A stretch of DNA of 23,144 bases. It comes from a virus. Positions 1 through 12,172 of this stretch are shown piece by piece (positions within the stretch are counted from its first letter, which is position 1; each line of letters begins with the position of its first letter). The position numbers and the translations under genes are program-made. Location: positions 489-23,632 of IMG/VR virus record IMGVR_UViG_3300000117_000258. One strand, given 5' to 3'. Below the pieces are notes generated by a model, which saw only the letters and a program-made list of their open reading frames with translations, had not been told where the DNA came from and did not search any database.

Positions 1-1170
1 CTGACCATCAGTCAGGTATTCGGTCATAACAAATATGCAGTCGTCTCCATTCCTAATGGCATAGCTAACGCAGAGAAATCATGTAAGCGTAGCTTGGAAT
101 GGTTAGAGAAGTTCGAGCGGATAAACATCTGCTTCGATAACGATGAGCTTGGCAAGTCAAAAGCTAAGAAGGTTGCTCAACTCTTTACACCCGGCAAGGC
201 GTTCATCGTGACGCTGCCCAGTAAGGATGCCAGCGACATGCTGCAAGACAATCAAGAGAGTGAGTTAGTCGATGCCCTCTGGGGTGCAAGACCTTACCAC
301 CCCGATGGTATTGTCGATCACGCTGGTCTGCTTGAGTACATCAGGAGACCCAAGAATAAAGAGAGCAAGCCCTACCCCTTCGACGGCCTGACAGAAAAGA
401 CGCACGGCATAAGGCGCGGTGAACTTGTAACAGTCTGCGCCGGTACAGGTGTGGGTAAGTCACAGTTCTGTAGGCAACTGACTGACACCCTCCTGCAAGA
501 TGGAGAGAAGGTTGGTTACATAGCTCTTGAAGAGAGTGTGCAGCGTACTGTCGAGGGGCTGATGTCTATTCGTCTGGGTAAAGCTATCCATACGGATACA
601 AGAGATTGGTCTGACCTGTCAGACAGCGAGCAGACAGAACGTATGCAGGTCTATCACGGGCTGAAGGGTCTGTATTGTTATGACCACTTCGGCAGCATCG
701 ATAGCCAGAACCTTATCAACCGTATCAGATTCATGGCTAAAGCATGTGACGTACACTGGGTTGTCCTCGATCACCTGTCGATCATGTCATCAGCGTTTGC
801 TGATGGTGATGAGAGACGCATGATTGACCAGACCATGACCACTCTTCGATCACTGGTCGAGGAGACAAACATTGGTCTGGTGTTGGTATCTCACCTACGC
901 AGACCTGATGGAAATAAAGGCTACGAGAATGGAATGGAGTTAAGCCTCTCTGCGTTGAGAGGTAGCCACTCAATTAGCCAACTGTCGGACAGCGTATTGG
1001 GCATCGAGCGCGACCTATCTGATGACAAAAATATCAGTGTCGTGCGTGTACTCAAGAACCGCTTCAGTGGTGATACAGGCGTGGCTTGTCGTATTCAATT
1101 CGATCCACTTACGACACTATTACGAGAATGTAATTATGAAGAAGAAGAAGGATCATCAAATGATTTTTGA
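1..1170 (+). CDS. Primase-helicase, T7 gp4-like (5' truncated)
   Basis: Bifunctional replication protein that primes the lagging strand and unwinds DNA as a hexameric ring. The frame is open from base 1, so the zinc-binding domain and part of the primase lie upstream. Visible in order: the end of a TOPRIM primase domain (FDNDELG, about bases 130-150); a RecA-like helicase with Walker A GTGVGKS (442-462); the LEESV element after it; Walker B-like VVLDHLS near 760-780; and SHLRRPDG and LRGSHSISQLSD, which match the T7 gp4 arginine-finger and sensor region. The C-terminus EEEEGSSNDF is acidic and ends in Phe, as in T7 gp4, where this tail docks on the polymerase. It ends 10 bases inside the next ORF. 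Recognition is very secure; the truncation is due to the window edge. Confidence 0.95.
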   Translation: MTISQVFGHNKYAVVSIPNGIANAEKSCKRSLEWLEKFERINICFDNDELGKSKAKKVAQLFTPGKAFIVTLPSKDASDMLQDNQESELVDALWGARPYHPDGIVDHAGLLEYIRRPKNKESKPYPFDGLTEKTHGIRRGELVTVCAGTGVGKSQFCRQLTDTLLQDGEKVGYIALEESVQRTVEGLMSIRLGKAIHTDTRDWSDLSDSEQTERMQVYHGLKGLYCYDHFGSIDSQNLINRIRFMAKACDVHWVVLDHLSIMSSAFADGDERRMIDQTMTTLRSLVEETNIGLVLVSHLRRPDGNKGYENGMELSLSALRGSHSISQLSDSVLGIERDLSDDKNISVVRVLKNRFSGDTGVACRIQFDPLTTLLRECNYEEEEGSSNDF

Positions 1171-1390: not shown

Positions 1391-2090
1391 GCTTGTCTTT
1401 GATATTGAAACAGACGGTCTCGATCCAGATGTCATCCACTGTATAATTACTAAAGACATCGATAAACCTGACGATAATATCACTACCTACACAACTAACT
1501 GGCGTGATGCTTTACCTGTCATGGCAGAGGCTGATGAGTTAATCGGTCATAACATTATCGACTTCGATATACCCGTCATTCAGAAGTTTGAACCTGACTT
1601 TAAACCGAAGTCAGCTTCGGTATTAGATACGTTGGTATGGGCTAGGCTAGTAGCACCAGACATACGTAGTCGAGACTTCGACCGAAAAGATTTACCACCC
1701 AGACTTAACGGTTCTCATAGCCTCAAGGCATGGGGATTACGTCTTGGTAAATTGAAGGGAGACTTCGAGGGACCGTGGCACACAATGACAGACGAGATGC
1801 TGGAGTATGCTGTTCAGGATGTGCAGGTCACTCACTCCCTACATGATTACTTAGCTTCAAAGAAGTTCTCAAAAAAAAGTATCTCGCTCGAACACGCCGT
1901 ACATCGAATATGCTCCTCGCAAGAGCGTCACGGTTTTCTGTTCGACAAAGACAAGGCGTGGCAACTCGCAACATCCCTCGAAGAACAGAGGGAGAAGCTG
2001 GAGATACAGAACTCCAAGAGATATTCCCGCCATACGAAGTGCATACACCGTTCATGCCGAAGGCAACAAACTCAAAGTACGGGTACGTGA
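1386..2090 (+). CDS. DNA polymerase, N-terminal 3'-5' exonuclease part (first frame)
   Basis: Proofreading half of a T7 gp5-like family A polymerase. With the ATT at 1386 as start, the DnaQ-type motifs fall where expected: Exo I FDIETDGL (D6, E8), Exo II HNIIDFD (N56, D61), Exo III YAVQD (Y141, D145). T7-like sequence LEHAVHRICSSQERHGFLFD continues to about base 1960, then EEQREKLE to 2003. After that the frame runs into unrelated residues and stops at 2090, while the polymerase domain continues in the -1 frame from about 2003. An in-frame TAA at 1368 leaves no ATG, GTG or TTG before Exo I. ATT at 1386 has GGAG at 1375-1378 upstream, so it is the best start. Functional protein requires a frameshift, two polypeptides, or a corrected sequence. 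Confidence 0.85.
   Translation: MRLVFDIETDGLDPDVIHCIITKDIDKPDDNITTYTTNWRDALPVMAEADELIGHNIIDFDIPVIQKFEPDFKPKSASVLDTLVWARLVAPDIRSRDFDRKDLPPRLNGSHSLKAWGLRLGKLKGDFEGPWHTMTDEMLEYAVQDVQVTHSLHDYLASKKFSKKSISLEHAVHRICSSQERHGFLFDKDKAWQLATSLEEQREKLEIQNSKRYSRHTKCIHRSCRRQQTQSTGT
1605..1620 (+). repeat. CCGAAG-TCAG-CTTCGG hairpin, coding copy 1 of 4
   Basis: Perfect 6-bp inverted repeat with a TCAG loop inside the polymerase exonuclease domain, encoding PKSAS. The downstream bases (TATTAGATACGTT) match those after the copy at 6452 (AATTAGAAGCGTT) at 10 of 13 positions, so the repeat extends beyond the hairpin. Confidence 0.7.
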
Positions 2091-3145
2091 AGGGGGAGAT
2101 GACGGAGAAGGTAACGACAGTGACCTTCAACCCACAGTCTCGCCACCACATAGCGAACAGACTGAAGAACAAGTACCGTTGGAAGCCGAAGGAACACACG
2201 CCAAACGGTCAACCGAAGATCGATGAGACCGTACTTCAGTCTCTCAACTATCCCGAGGCACAGAAGCTGGCCGACTACTTTCTTATAGCCAAACGTATTG
2301 CAGCTTTAAGTGAAGGACGACAGGCTTGGCTATCAAACGTGAAGGAAGACAACCGTATTCATGGCAGGGTTCTGGTCAATGGTGCTGTCACTGGCAGGGC
2401 TACACACCGGAATCCCAACATGGCACAGATACCTAGCTGCCGTGTGCCTTACGGTAAAGAATGTCGTGAGTTGTTCACTGTGCCAGACGGTAAGGTACTC
2501 GTTGGTTCAGACGTATCAGGTCTTGAGTTGCGGGTACTCTCTCACTTCATGCACCCGCTGGACAAGGGTGCGTATGCCAGAGCCATACTCGAAGGTGATA
2601 TACATACCTTCAATCAGCAGAAGGCTGGGCTAGAGACACGCGATCAAGCCAAGACATTTATATATGCACTCATCTTTTCCGCAGGTGCAGAGAAGCTGGG
2701 TCAGATCGTTGGAGGTACGAGGGCAACAGGTTCAAAACTAAAGAAGCGTTTCTTTAAAGAACTACCTGCCCTCGACTCCTTCATAACCAAAGTTAAACAG
2801 AAGGCAGAAGACCAGGGATATTTAACTGGTCTCGATGGCAGACTGTTGAAGGTTCGTAGCCCTCACAGTTCTCCCAACCTCATTATCCAATCGGCTGGCG
2901 CTCTAATCTGCAAACGCTGGCTCATAGAAATCAATAAAGAAGTACACATCCAAGGACTGAGTGACCGCTGCCGTCAGGTGGCATGGGTTCACGATGAAGT
3001 TCAATGGGAATGTGATGAAGACGTAGGAGAATTATTCGGTGAACTCGCAGTTCGATCTATTAGAAAAGCAGGAGACTACTTCGGAATCAGAACACCTCTC
3101 GATGCTGAATATCGTATCGGAAGGGATTGGTCCCAAACACATTAG
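1910..3145 (+). CDS. DNA polymerase, C-terminal polymerase part (second frame)
   Basis: Family A polymerase domain of a T7 gp5-like enzyme, which copies phage DNA. True homology begins near 2003-2012 (TELQEIFPP). The first 30 or so residues after the ATG at 1910 are an out-of-frame reading of the exonuclease region and are probably not made. Motifs by base position: FNPQSRHHIANRL thumb region; NGAVTGRATHRNPNMAQIP; motif A GSDVSGLEL with catalytic Asp codon at 2510; motif B RDQAKTFIY with Lys at 2651 and Tyr at 2663 (the E. coli Pol I 762 position); motif C VHDE with Asp at 2993. Fused to the exonuclease part the protein would be about 586 residues, shorter than the 704 of T7. All catalytic residues are intact, arguing against a decayed gene. 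Confidence 0.88.
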   Translation: MLLARASRFSVRQRQGVATRNIPRRTEGEAGDTELQEIFPPYEVHTPFMPKATNSKYGYVKGEMTEKVTTVTFNPQSRHHIANRLKNKYRWKPKEHTPNGQPKIDETVLQSLNYPEAQKLADYFLIAKRIAALSEGRQAWLSNVKEDNRIHGRVLVNGAVTGRATHRNPNMAQIPSCRVPYGKECRELFTVPDGKVLVGSDVSGLELRVLSHFMHPLDKGAYARAILEGDIHTFNQQKAGLETRDQAKTFIYALIFSAGAEKLGQIVGGTRATGSKLKKRFFKELPALDSFITKVKQKAEDQGYLTGLDGRLLKVRSPHSSPNLIIQSAGALICKRWLIEINKEVHIQGLSDRCRQVAWVHDEVQWECDEDVGELFGELAVRSIRKAGDYFGIRTPLDAEYRIGRDWSQTH

Positions 3146-3506
3146 CGAAGAGTGGTTAGCTGGCTACCTCGATGGAGAGGGATGCTTTCTCGTTAAGAGC
3201 AGTACCGTTTGTGTAAAGGTTAATAGCTGCAATTACGAGATACTGTGCAGCATACAAGACCAGTATAGCGGGTCGATAACTACCCACTCAAAAGCTAAAG
3301 GTAATTCCAGAGCAAGCTGGACATGGGCGCTATATGGCGACCCTGCGATAGCACTCTGTAAGACGCTTCTTAACCATTTAAAAGAGAAGCAAGTGCAAGC
3401 TCTCGCACTGATTGCGTGGAGAGATAGTAAGTCTGAAGAGGTAGGAAAGTTTCTCACCTCTCAAAAGAAAACCCACTATGAACATTTGGACAGGAGAGAC
3501 AGTTGA
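3102..3506 (+). CDS. Free-standing LAGLIDADG homing endonuclease
   Basis: About 134 residues with one clear LAGLIDADG-type motif, EWLAGYLDGEG, close to the N-terminus, which in this family forms the dimer core and supplies the metal-binding acidic residue. A single motif implies a homodimer, as in I-CreI (163 residues). The ORF lies out of frame over the last 44 bases of DNA polymerase and its TGA overlaps the TTG start of the exonuclease. The start is uncertain. ATG 3102 lacks a clear ribosome site. GTG 3039 has AGGAG 11 bases upstream but would put about 40 residues before the motif. ATT 3141 overlaps the polymerase TAG in the same ATTAG arrangement as at 1386. The polymerase C-terminus is complete, so this is not inside an intron of that gene. 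Confidence 0.75.
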   Translation: MLNIVSEGIGPKHISEEWLAGYLDGEGCFLVKSSTVCVKVNSCNYEILCSIQDQYSGSITTHSKAKGNSRASWTWALYGDPAIALCKTLLNHLKEKQVQALALIAWRDSKSEEVGKFLTSQKKTHYEHLDRRDS

Positions 3507-8464: not shown

Positions 8465-9248
8465 ATATGGAGGTCGCGGGGGTTCCACTTGGAGACCGTC
8501 CGGTAAAGTCAGCGGTACAGATTGGTTCAATATCCCTACTGGCGGGGATAAACAAACCCGACAGACAAGGAATCGAAAATCAAATAAACAACGTAAACAA
8601 CCTACTGTGACTAGAAATTCAGGAAGTGGGTGGAGTCGTCTTGGGGCTGGGGTAGGGTCTGCCGCATTAATTTCTGGCATAGGGTTTATTGGTAACCAGA
8701 TAGACAAAAGCGGTATGCAAGCTCAAAGGAAATCTCAGAGGTATTTAAAAGATAATCCTACGTATACTGGAAGTAGTTACTTAGGAAAGAGTACATGGAA
8801 CGCTAACACCCGGTTAGCCCGTGAAGAGAATAAAAAAAGGGGAGGACCTAAAGTCCCTCAATCTGGTGTTATCGGTCCTCCCGTCAAGGAAATGCCGAAG
8901 CGTCCAATTTCTTCCCCTGTAGCTGAATCCAAATTCGACCAGAATGTGAAAGCTGCCATAGCAAAGTTTCCACCTCGTAAAACTGCTGCGCCGAATCCTG
9001 CGCCGAAGCTCCCTGCCCTAAAGACACAGACAGTCACCACACATTCTGTAGATAAAGTACGGAGCGGTGCCGCAGGTAGTGGTGGACCGCAAACAGGTAA
9101 GTCTAAAACCCGTGTAGCTTTCGAGAAACAGTTTGCTGCTGCGAGACAAAAGCAGGGAGCGGGAGGAACTTTTAAGTTTAAGAATCCTAATACCGGGAAA
9201 ACTACGACGCACACGACAGATTACAAGAAAGCTAAGAAGAAGAAATAA
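8454..9248 (+). CDS. Basic, low-complexity protein between portal and scaffold
   Basis: A 264-residue strongly basic protein with Gly, Ser, Lys and Pro bias. The N-terminus is SSKYGGRGGSTWRP, a short hydrophobic Gly/Ala stretch (GAGVGSAALISGIGFIGNQI) lies near residues 65-85, and a Lys tract YKKAKKKK ends it. I recognise no family. The hydrophobic segment could be a membrane or packing helix; the basic tail could bind nucleic acid. It overlaps the portal by 11 bases, and its TAA overlaps the next ATG (TAATG). T7 has no obvious counterpart of this size at this place, so it may be a lineage-specific virion or assembly protein. Confidence 0.75.
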   Translation: MSSKYGGRGGSTWRPSGKVSGTDWFNIPTGGDKQTRQTRNRKSNKQRKQPTVTRNSGSGWSRLGAGVGSAALISGIGFIGNQIDKSGMQAQRKSQRYLKDNPTYTGSSYLGKSTWNANTRLAREENKKRGGPKVPQSGVIGPPVKEMPKRPISSPVAESKFDQNVKAAIAKFPPRKTAAPNPAPKLPALKTQTVTTHSVDKVRSGAAGSGGPQTGKSKTRVAFEKQFAAARQKQGAGGTFKFKNPNTGKTTTHTTDYKKAKKKK

Positions 9249-9400
9249 TGGTTGAAAATAAGAAACCTTCTAAGAAAGAAGATCAGACAGAAGTAAAACT
9301 TGAATACCCTGTTTGGCCGGGATCAGTAGATGCGGAACCGGGTGTTCAATACCAGAAATTAAACGGAACACTGATTATGAAAGGCGATTTAGTTGGTTGA
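9248..9400 (+). CDS. Short ORF of 50 residues before scaffold
   Basis: Starts at the ATG that overlaps the preceding stop (TAATG, 9246-9250) and reads MVENKKPSKKEDQTEVKLEY, then PVWPGSVDAEPG and a short tail to TGA at 9398-9400. The next gene's TTG start at 9393 lies inside its end. The tight overlaps on both sides support translation. The N-terminal 16 residues are highly charged; the rest has a compact hydrophobic pattern, VQYQKLNGTLIMKGDLVG, that looks like a small beta unit. No family recognised. Confidence 0.65.
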   Translation: MVENKKPSKKEDQTEVKLEYPVWPGSVDAEPGVQYQKLNGTLIMKGDLVG

Positions 9401-10145
9401 AGAAGTCGTAATTCAAGCCGCTGAAACAGGACCGGAGGCTCCAGTAGAAGAGACTGCACCACAGTCTGAGGTAGCCTCTGAACGTCCTGAGTGGCTACCT
9501 GAGAAGTTTAACAGTGCAGAGGATTTGGCTAAAGCATATGGAGAACTTGAAGCTCAAAATACAAGAGCAAATCAACAACTGCCGGAACAGACTCCAGAAA
9601 CGCTGGACGTGCCTGAAGTTCAGAGTGATGTCAGCGAACCACAAAGTTCGCTTAATTTTGAAGAGATGTCGCAAGAGTTTAGCAGAGACCAAGGTCTTAG
9701 TCCTGAACGTTATGAACAACTGGAACGTGCGGGTATTCCTCGTGATATTGTTGATAGTTATATTGCTGGTCAATCTGCTGTAGGAAATCAAATCCGCTCA
9801 GAAGCAGAAAGTATTGTAGGAGGCTCCGAATCATATAACGACATGGTTAGCTGGGCGTCTCAAAGCCTTTCCGAAGGTGAGCAAGAGCAATACAACGCTG
9901 CTATGGCAAGCGGTAATAGAGACGCTATTCTAATGGCTGTACGAGGTCTACAAGGACGCTATCAAGCAGACTTTGGACAGTCACCTAACCTACGTCACGG
10001 AACATCAGAGCATCACCAAGGTGATATCTATAATTCTTGGGCGCAAGTATCGAGAGATATGGGATCAGACCAGTATAAAGCTGACCCTGCTTACAGGGCA
10101 GCGGTCGAGGAGCGGTTGGCTAGATCAGGCCCGCTCGCTTCTTAA
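9393..10145 (+). CDS. Capsid assembly scaffolding protein, T7 gp9-like
   Basis: Directs assembly of the capsid shell and leaves before maturation. It has 250 residues, acidic and helical, with no Cys. Family signs are RPEWLPEKFNSAEDLAKAYGELE near the N-terminus, which resembles T7-type scaffolds, an acidic linker, and a C-terminal helical half (SESYNDMVSWASQSLSEGEQ and onward) ending in ERLARSGPLAS. The TTG start at 9393 overlaps the short upstream ORF by 8 bases. Position directly before the major capsid gene supports the call. It is followed by a 133-base leader before the capsid gene. Confidence 0.9.
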   Translation: MVEEVVIQAAETGPEAPVEETAPQSEVASERPEWLPEKFNSAEDLAKAYGELEAQNTRANQQLPEQTPETLDVPEVQSDVSEPQSSLNFEEMSQEFSRDQGLSPERYEQLERAGIPRDIVDSYIAGQSAVGNQIRSEAESIVGGSESYNDMVSWASQSLSEGEQEQYNAAMASGNRDAILMAVRGLQGRYQADFGQSPNLRHGTSEHHQGDIYNSWAQVSRDMGSDQYKADPAYRAAVEERLARSGPLAS

Positions 10146-10278
10146 TCGTATTACAAATCTGAGTACCTATGACCCTCTACGGAGGATAATCTGTGAGAAA
10201 AGTGAGTAAACACCTCCTCTAATTCCGAAGGTAACTTCGGTTTTAATTTCAACATTTTAATCTTTAGGACTATAAGAA
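10146..10278 (+). promoter_or_regulatory. Leader region of the capsid gene
   Basis: A 133-base gene-free stretch, the longest apart from the capsid intron. It contains a small CCTC-TACG-GAGG inverted repeat near 10173-10184, the CCGAAG-GTAA-CTTCGG hairpin at 10225-10240, an A/T-rich tail, and TTTAGGA shortly before the capsid ATG. Being the largest spacer before the most highly expressed gene, it is the likeliest place for a phage promoter. I could not match any T7-type promoter consensus with confidence. Confidence 0.4.
10225..10240 (+). promoter_or_regulatory. Hairpin in capsid leader (copy 3 of 4)
   Basis: Perfect 6-bp stem CCGAAG/CTTCGG closed by a GTAA loop, a GNRA-type tetraloop, followed by TTTTAATTT. 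It could act as a weak intrinsic terminator after the scaffold gene, or as a 5' stabilising or processing structure on capsid mRNA. The same hairpin with the same loop precedes the tail-fibre gene at 20771, and TTAATTTCAA follows in both. Confidence 0.6.
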
Positions 10279-11497
10279 ATGTCTAACGCTACGATCTCTG
10301 ATCTTGGCAAGGTTAATAATGCTGGCACCGCAGATGCCCTTTTCTTGAAAGTTTGGGCTGGAGAAGTTCTTACGAGCTTTGAGCAGTATACTTGCACCGC
10401 TGATAAGCACATGGTGCGAGCCATTCCGTCAGGGAAGTCGGCACAATTTCCGGTTATGGGACGGTCAAGCGCCGCTTATCATACACCGGGTGCTGAAATC
10501 GTCGGTACAGCACTTAACCATAATGAGAAGATTATCACGATTAACGATCTTCTTATTAGCCACCATTTCTTAGCCTCGATCTCTGAAGCTAAGAACCACT
10601 ACGATGTACGCAGTGTTTATACTAATGAAATGGGCCGCGCTCTCGCGTTCCAAATGGATAAACACGTACTGCAAGTCATGGTAAAAGCTGCCAAGTCTAG
10701 CACTGCAAACGTCGGTGATACCAGTTACCCGTCAGGTACGATCATCACCAAGACCAACTCCAACACTGTAGCAGCGGATTTGATTTCTGCTATCTTTGAT
10801 GCGGCTGAAGCCCTGGATGATAACTACGTACCTGCCGAAGATCGTTTCTGCTACCTGAAGCCAGAGCAGTATTACCTGCTGGCTAACGCTAGTAACGCGA
10901 TCAACGTGGACTTCAGCGGCATGGGTTCTATTGCTGCCGGTGTTGTACCTCAACTCGCAGGTATCAACCTCATTAAAACCCCTCACCTCCCGACTACCAA
11001 TATTACTGGTACGGGCGTTGATGCGGGTGGTGCCGTTGCTTCCGCTGTTGTGGATGCGCGGAACACGGTTGCGCTTATTACGCACCCAAGTTCTGTCGGT
11101 ACGGTCAAGCTCATGGATTTGGCCGTCGAGATGGAATACGACATTCGCCGTCAGGGTAGAACTATACATTAACTGCCCCCCTATATCGTAAGATATGGGT
11201 TCACATTCCGTGAACTGCTGGAAGCCTAAGTCGCAAGATATGGTAATCAGCATCCAAGGCTATCAGGAATGGTAGCAAGGTTCAGAGACTAGATTTGAGT
11301 CCAGACCGGACGATAAAAATCCAAGAGCGCGGAACAACCTACGGGTTGAAGATATAGTCCCACACTCCAGAGAAATCTGGAGGCAGTAATTAAAAAATCT
11401 GCATAAGATAATGACGTTAATGGTAGCCAAATACGCTATGGGCCACGACATTTTGCGCCCAGAAGCATCTGTCCAAATTCGGACTGCTGCACCGTAA
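10279..11497 (+). CDS. Major capsid protein, T7 gp10-like, split by a group I intron
   Basis: Builds the icosahedral head. The coding sequence is exon 1, 10279-11157 (293 codons), joined to exon 2, 11414-11497 (27 codons and TAA), giving 320 residues, close to T7 gp10A (345). Family matches are GKSAQFPVMGRSSAAYHTPG, KIITINDLLISHHFLASI, NHYDVRS, NYVPAEDRF and HPSSVGTVKLMDLAVE. Exon 1 ends RRQG; exon 2 reads TLMVAKYAMGHDILRPEA, which aligns with the T7 C-terminal KYAMGHGGLRPEA. Without splicing, translation stops at TAA 11170-11172 after 297 codons with tail RTIH and lacks this conserved end. ATG 10279 follows TTTAGGA. The join is deduced from homology and intron structure, not from RNA. Confidence 0.93.
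11158..11413 (+). ncRNA. Group I self-splicing intron in the capsid gene (256 nt, no ORF)
   Basis: Core elements read by eye. P1: exon/intron GGGTAG (11154-11159) pairs with CTGCCC (11173-11178), giving a U-G pair exactly at the 5' splice site (U11157, G11175). P2: GTTCAC/GTGAAC (11199-11215). P7: GACTA (11287-11291) with TAGTC (11355-11359), embedded in the group I signatures TTCAGAGACTA and AAGATATAGTCC. A GTCC/GGAC hairpin (about 11299-11311) follows P7, suggesting subgroup IA. P8: CAACC-TACG-GGTTG (11335-11348). P9: CTCCAG/CTGGAG (11365-11382). The last base is G11413. A P10 candidate pairs TAAC (11170-11173) with exon GTTA (11416-11419). No endonuclease ORF is present. P3 to P6 were not traced. 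Confidence 0.93.
11414..11497 (+). CDS. Major capsid protein, 3' exon
   Basis: Twenty-seven codons plus TAA, reading TLMVAKYAMGHDILRPEA and then SVQIRTAAP. This is the conserved C-terminus of T7-like capsid proteins and has no start codon or ribosome site of its own suited to it. It is in frame with exon 1 only after removal of 11158-11413. It is listed separately because a plain ORF scan misses it. Confidence 0.9.
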   Translation, partial: TLMVAKYAMGHDILRPEASVQIRTAAP

Positions 11498-11515
11498 GGA
11501 GCAGTATCTTAAACT

Positions 11516-11550
11516 GTGGGGGGTCTCTAGTAGGCTCCCCACTTTCTTTT
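11516..11550 (+). terminator. Intrinsic terminator after the capsid gene
   Basis: An 11-bp stem, GTGGGGGGTCT (11516-11526) with AGGCTCCCCAC (11532-11542) including two G-U pairs, encloses a 5-base loop and is followed by TTTCTTTT. It lies 18 bases after the capsid stop and just before the tail-tube gene. T7 has its main terminator at the corresponding place after gene 10, where partial read-through lowers expression of tail genes relative to capsid. Confidence 0.88.
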
Positions 11551-11560
11551 AGGAATTTAA

Positions 11561-12172
11561 ATGGGACAACTTTATCCGACTACGGAACTAGAGGCAGTCA
11601 ACACGATTATAAGTACAATCGGTGAAGCTCCCGTATCTACCCTAGAGAACAATTCTCTGGAAGATGTGACTGCCGCTAAGAACATATTAAACGAGACCAT
11701 CGTAGATGTTCAAACATCAGGGTGGAACTTCAACAAAGAATACAATTACAAAATCAATCCAGATACTGACGGGTTTGTAAACATCCCTGCAAACGCCGTG
11801 TATGCCGACTCCTCAAACAGAGGTTCAACGGCTGATAAGGATATCGTCATTAGAGGTACTAAGCTCTATGACCGCGAGAACCAGACGTTTACGTTTACCG
11901 ATCCTCAATACGTAGACCTTATTCTAATCCTGCCTTGGGATGACCTCCCCCAACCTGCAAGACGTTACTGCACTATCAAAGCAGCAAGACGATTCCAGAA
12001 CCGTATATTTGGTTCAGACAGTCTCAATGGATTTACACAGATTGATGAGACCGAATCCCTCGTTCAGCTAGAGCAATCAGATTCCCGTTCCGAAGATGCA
12101 AACATGCTCACAGGGAACTGGGGTGTTTATAGGGTTCTTCGGCGCAATGGCTCTAGGAAATATAACATATGA
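11561..12172 (+). CDS. Tail tubular protein A, T7 gp11-like (adaptor)
   Basis: Forms the ring joining portal to nozzle. It has 203 residues, near the 196 of T7 gp11. Typical features are TTELEAVNTIISTIGEAPVS at the N-terminus, ILNETIVDVQTSGWNFNKEYN, DPQYVDLILILPWDDLPQPA, and a C-terminal ARRFQNRIFGSDSL region. ATG at 11561 follows TTTTAGGA just downstream of the terminator. Its TGA overlaps the start of the next gene (ATGA, 12169-12172), so tail tube A and B are translationally coupled. Confidence 0.93.
   Translation: MGQLYPTTELEAVNTIISTIGEAPVSTLENNSLEDVTAAKNILNETIVDVQTSGWNFNKEYNYKINPDTDGFVNIPANAVYADSSNRGSTADKDIVIRGTKLYDRENQTFTFTDPQYVDLILILPWDDLPQPARRYCTIKAARRFQNRIFGSDSLNGFTQIDETESLVQLEQSDSRSEDANMLTGNWGVYRVLRRNGSRKYNI

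Follow-up and report, generated by a model that had tools for sequence, protein, structure and literature searches.

The frame change between the exonuclease and polymerase parts of the DNA polymerase gene in the window is most likely an artefact of assembly or of consensus calling and not a new kind of gene. The window is the whole stretch of DNA analysed (23,144 nucleotides, positions 489–23632 of a virus record of 23,632 bases), and it very probably carries an ordinary, single-ORF T7-like (family A) phage DNA polymerase gene in whose sequence two strains were merged with a misregister of two bases. The gene order of the window is T7-like, with helicase (called by sequence, without a profile scan), DNA polymerase, exonuclease, ribonucleotide reductase, portal and capsid. 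The 3'-5' exonuclease part of the polymerase lies at 1386–2003 on the plus strand, with codons counted from 1386/1389, and its frame remains open until a stop codon at 2088–2090; the polymerase part of the same gene, also on the plus strand, occupies 2009–3145 (its frame running from 2006/2009 through 3145) in the -1 (equivalently +2) frame relative to the exonuclease part.

The domain order is that of a gp5-like enzyme, an exonuclease followed by a polymerase. The exonuclease part matches PF01612 (E = 4.2e-5) with a score barely above the Pfam cut-off (23.9 versus 23.6 bits), while the polymerase part matches PF00476 above its cut-off with E = 4.1e-48. In PHROG_17 (phage DNA polymerase), profile positions 671–877 correspond to the exonuclease part and 877–1233 to the polymerase part, and because these positions are contiguous across both parts, no stretch of the profile is missing at the junction. 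These matches bear out the first-pass annotation, in which T7-like homology was placed in one frame up to 2003 and then in the -1 frame; its statement that no sequence is inserted was wrong, since within 2004–2011 of the plus strand the window has 2 nt that all close relatives lack and also carries a substitution relative to the nearest contig at 2011. The other main ORFs of the window are open, as judged by eye rather than scored. In the regions aligned by blastn between the window and two relatives of about 89% identity, the junction is the only uncompensated frame-breaking length difference seen in coding sequence, and the remaining frame-breaking gaps stand close together in twos or in clusters, for the most part where the alignment is poor.

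Relatives were collected from IMG/VR by a scan with the polymerase part, which gave 38 loci, and by a scan with the exonuclease part, in which 80 of 96 matches were confirmed. Both parts are present in 113 of the 118 loci (L003–L120), those left out being L016, L032 and L039, without the exonuclease part, and L056 and L093, without the polymerase part; removal of four contigs that had been fetched twice left 109 distinct contigs, some of them partial at a contig end. Both parts lie in the same frame with no intervening stop in 108 of these 109, so that the frame change of the window does not behave as a conserved one of the cyanopodovirus type, and the single exception (L116) shows a cyanophage-type exonuclease/polymerase split about 40 codons upstream of the window site. 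The relatives L003 and L004 have 89% DNA identity to the window over 1773 bases, with about 90% residue identity in the exonuclease part and 95.5% identity in the polymerase part; they, together with L018 and L006, each carry the gene as one ORF that is 2 nt shorter at the junction, whereas in the window that ORF is interrupted at 2004–2011. L146 (PAPD01000016.1), the L003 phage as recovered in a separate assembly (99.98% identity to L003 over 6437 bases), is likewise unbroken and 2 nt shorter. The alignment with close relatives that had been suggested as a check thus returned unbroken genes, and the frame change is not conserved. The junction was found in no other contig of the viral contig collection, a scan that may leave out the window's own record. 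Two contigs (L132 and L133) match a 21-base pattern upstream of the junction; neither has an exonuclease or polymerase match, and the pattern match was taken as chance.

Several side observations concern these relatives and the surroundings of the gene. L146 comes from another assembly, where it is filed in a gammaproteobacterial MAG; this may be contamination or a hint at the host. Directly 3' of the junction, window positions 2012–2180 show about 93–97% identity to L003/L004, above most of the gene; this island may be a recombination tract or a selected element. No ATG, GTG or TTG precedes the first exonuclease motif of the polymerase gene (1371–1391), and the sole start candidate at the usual place is an ATT at 1386 that overlaps the TAG with which the upstream ORF ends. 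This ATT-only situation is common to L041, L003 and L004, and a TTG stands at the corresponding place in L018, L005, L006 and L044. At the other end of the gene, a small ORF at 3039–3506 overlaps the 3' end of the polymerase part and is similar to phrog_5046 (annotated as HNH endonuclease), with what we take to be a LAGLIDADG-like stretch; a similar ORF is found in L003, L004, L018 and L006.

The nearest contig, L041 (IMGVR_UViG_3300000117_003415), is informative because it is almost the same sequence. It has zero differences from the window over 148–2005 (1858 bases), all 205 of 205 residues of the exonuclease part are identical, and the 17 substitutions that separate the two outside the junction all fall in 1–147. 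At the junction itself L041 is 2 nt shorter, runs across in a single frame within the extent of its contig and differs at window position 2011; it is then identical to 2012–2049, where the contig ends, 38 bases past the junction. It should be kept in mind that the junction of L041 lies only 44 bases from the contig end, where assemblies are less reliable. Meanwhile, window positions 1–147 (plus strand) resemble L003/L004 rather than L041. At positions 1–635 of the record there are 84 aligned differences from L041, 21 from L003 and 16 from L004 (counted from the printed lists), and past 635 no difference from L041 occurs in the rest of the 2000 bases that were compared. This makes the record a strain mosaic, with an L003/L004-like stretch adjoining an L041-identical one at a border near window position 147.

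A similar strain switch may explain the junction. Two co-occurring phage strains would have been merged by the assembler or the consensus caller at a variable site, and a misregister of two bases in this merge would have left the extra bases at 2004–2011, so that one strain switch could account for both the insertion and the substitution at 2011. The exact window string is obtained by switching once from the L041 allele, with a two-base shift, into a variant of the L003/L004-type allele that was not itself observed; the alleles actually seen in L003 and L004 do not give an exact string by one switch, and no contig bearing the hypothetical second allele was retrieved. We infer that the merging was computational rather than an event in a virion, because L041 breaks off near the same place and because a lytic phage should not long keep a replicative polymerase that is broken. 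The end of the L041 contig 38 nt past the junction would be expected where an assembly graph breaks at a strain bubble. Of the one-base sequence error proposed in the first-pass annotation, the sequence error is favoured and the single base is not, the fault being one of strain mixing or consensus over two bases. A one-base sequencing slip is out, as the window is longer by two bases and has a substitution next to them; a homopolymer error at the A8 run (1871–1878, plus strand) is out, as the run has equal length in L041, L003, L004 and L146; and an intein, intron or mobile insertion is out, as the extra bases are two only.

Among the alternatives, one that is unlikely, though less so than the others, is a real two-base insertion, or illegitimate recombination of strains, affecting some of the phage population. 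It would leave a truncated exonuclease, little or no full-length polymerase and a defective or impaired genome, a state expected to vanish fast from a lytic phage, and it has to face an unbroken L041 and the confinement of the junction to this one contig (with the same reservation about the window's own record). The otherwise clean aligned coding sequence fits such an event, and the border near 147, which could itself be natural recombination, makes strain recombination plausible; a real recombination would give the same string as the computed merge. Recoding is highly improbable; here the two frames would be connected by slippage of ribosomes or RNA polymerase, either at the junction or on the A8 run. 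The exonuclease frame does contain A_AAA_AAA at 1871–1877, and the -1 frame is open without a stop from the A8 run to 3145. This heptamer is the sole X_XXY_YYZ motif in the exonuclease frame over 1865–2090 and lies 130 nt upstream of the junction, where there is none, as had been noted earlier from inspection; the earlier dismissal of the A8 run as the shift site also holds, for the run is present in the unbroken L041, L003, L004 and L146, slippage on it would put other residues in place of about 44 conserved ones, and the same slip in L003 meets a stop after about 115 codons. No stimulatory structure for programmed -1 ribosomal frameshifting was found, since the folding of RNA at the junction and downstream of it is no better than that of shuffled sequences (z = -0.64 and +1.33, computed without pseudoknots). 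Above all, conservation is lacking, even in L041, which shows no difference over 148–2005, and the recoding option raised in the first-pass annotation is not favoured.

It was also suggested that proofreading and polymerase parts might be made as separate proteins, with an internal start for the polymerase in the -1 frame, as annotated in P-SSP7. This was a sensible option, as the arrangement occurs in marine T7-like cyanophages, but there it is found at another site and in another clade, and for the window a functional split of this kind is as improbable as recoding. P-SSP7 and other cyanopodoviruses have exonuclease and polymerase in overlapping ORFs shifted by -1, and it has been reported (PMC3350473) that a putative frameshift or split variant in P-SSP7 was confirmed by proteomics. 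Twelve sequences served as a positive control, namely P-SSP7, ten records hand-picked from 49 found, and L116; in 11 of the 12 the frames of exonuclease and polymerase are offset by -1 at one common place (S-B28 and 7B11-B being near-duplicates at the junction), and in the twelfth, P-GSP1, the best exonuclease match stops early. The cyanopodovirus site lies just upstream of the SLEH motif, with an ORF overlap of about 40 nt and an internal start, whereas the window junction lies about 40 codons downstream of SLEH and is absent from every close relative. The polymerase frame of the window is open upstream of the junction and offers several possible starts, but these lack a Shine–Dalgarno-like motif, begin in sequence that is out of frame or lose the N-terminus of the polymerase part; the candidate at 2099 has a purine-rich stretch upstream, but the stretch is also present in the unbroken L003 and L004.

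A related and very unlikely case is that the insertion is real and tolerated, with exonuclease and polymerase made separately or joined by slippage at the A8 run, as a very recent event. If true, the split DNA polymerase would have arisen a second time among marine T7-like phages, in addition to its origin in cyanophages. The merged-strain reading is retained here, and it means that a metagenome contig assembled from mixed strains can look as if it carried a split or recoded gene, a mimicry that a nearly identical contig exposes.

Among the closest known systems, Pelagibacter phage HTVC031P and Roseobacter phage CRP-804 (marine Autographiviridae) share the domain order of the window gene and its primase–DNA polymerase–exonuclease neighbourhood, with about 53% identity in the polymerase part, but their DNA polymerases are annotated as one CDS (8850–10586 and 10257–12050, respectively), unlike the window with its frame change. 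Genuine exonuclease/polymerase frame changes do exist among marine T7-like phages, and where genuine they are conserved; the -1 split with overlapping ORFs is common to many cyanopodovirus DNA polymerases (L135–L145 and L116). In several records, such as P-SSP3, P-GSP1 and P-SSP6, no polymerase CDS is annotated at the split, and the records' own notes seem unsettled between two proteins and recoding. The 17A/17B genes of P-SSP7 and S-TIP37 resemble the window in their frames, which differ by -1 with overlapping ORFs, but their split sits about 40 codons further upstream and is a conserved feature of the examined relatives, while the change in the window is elsewhere, unique and confined to one contig. 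In addition, as described in PMC10580990, the OM43 phages MEP401 and MEP402 also have a marine-phage DNA polymerase in two ORFs, but unlike in the window the break lies inside the polymerase domain and is made by a small inserted ORF, possibly an intron.
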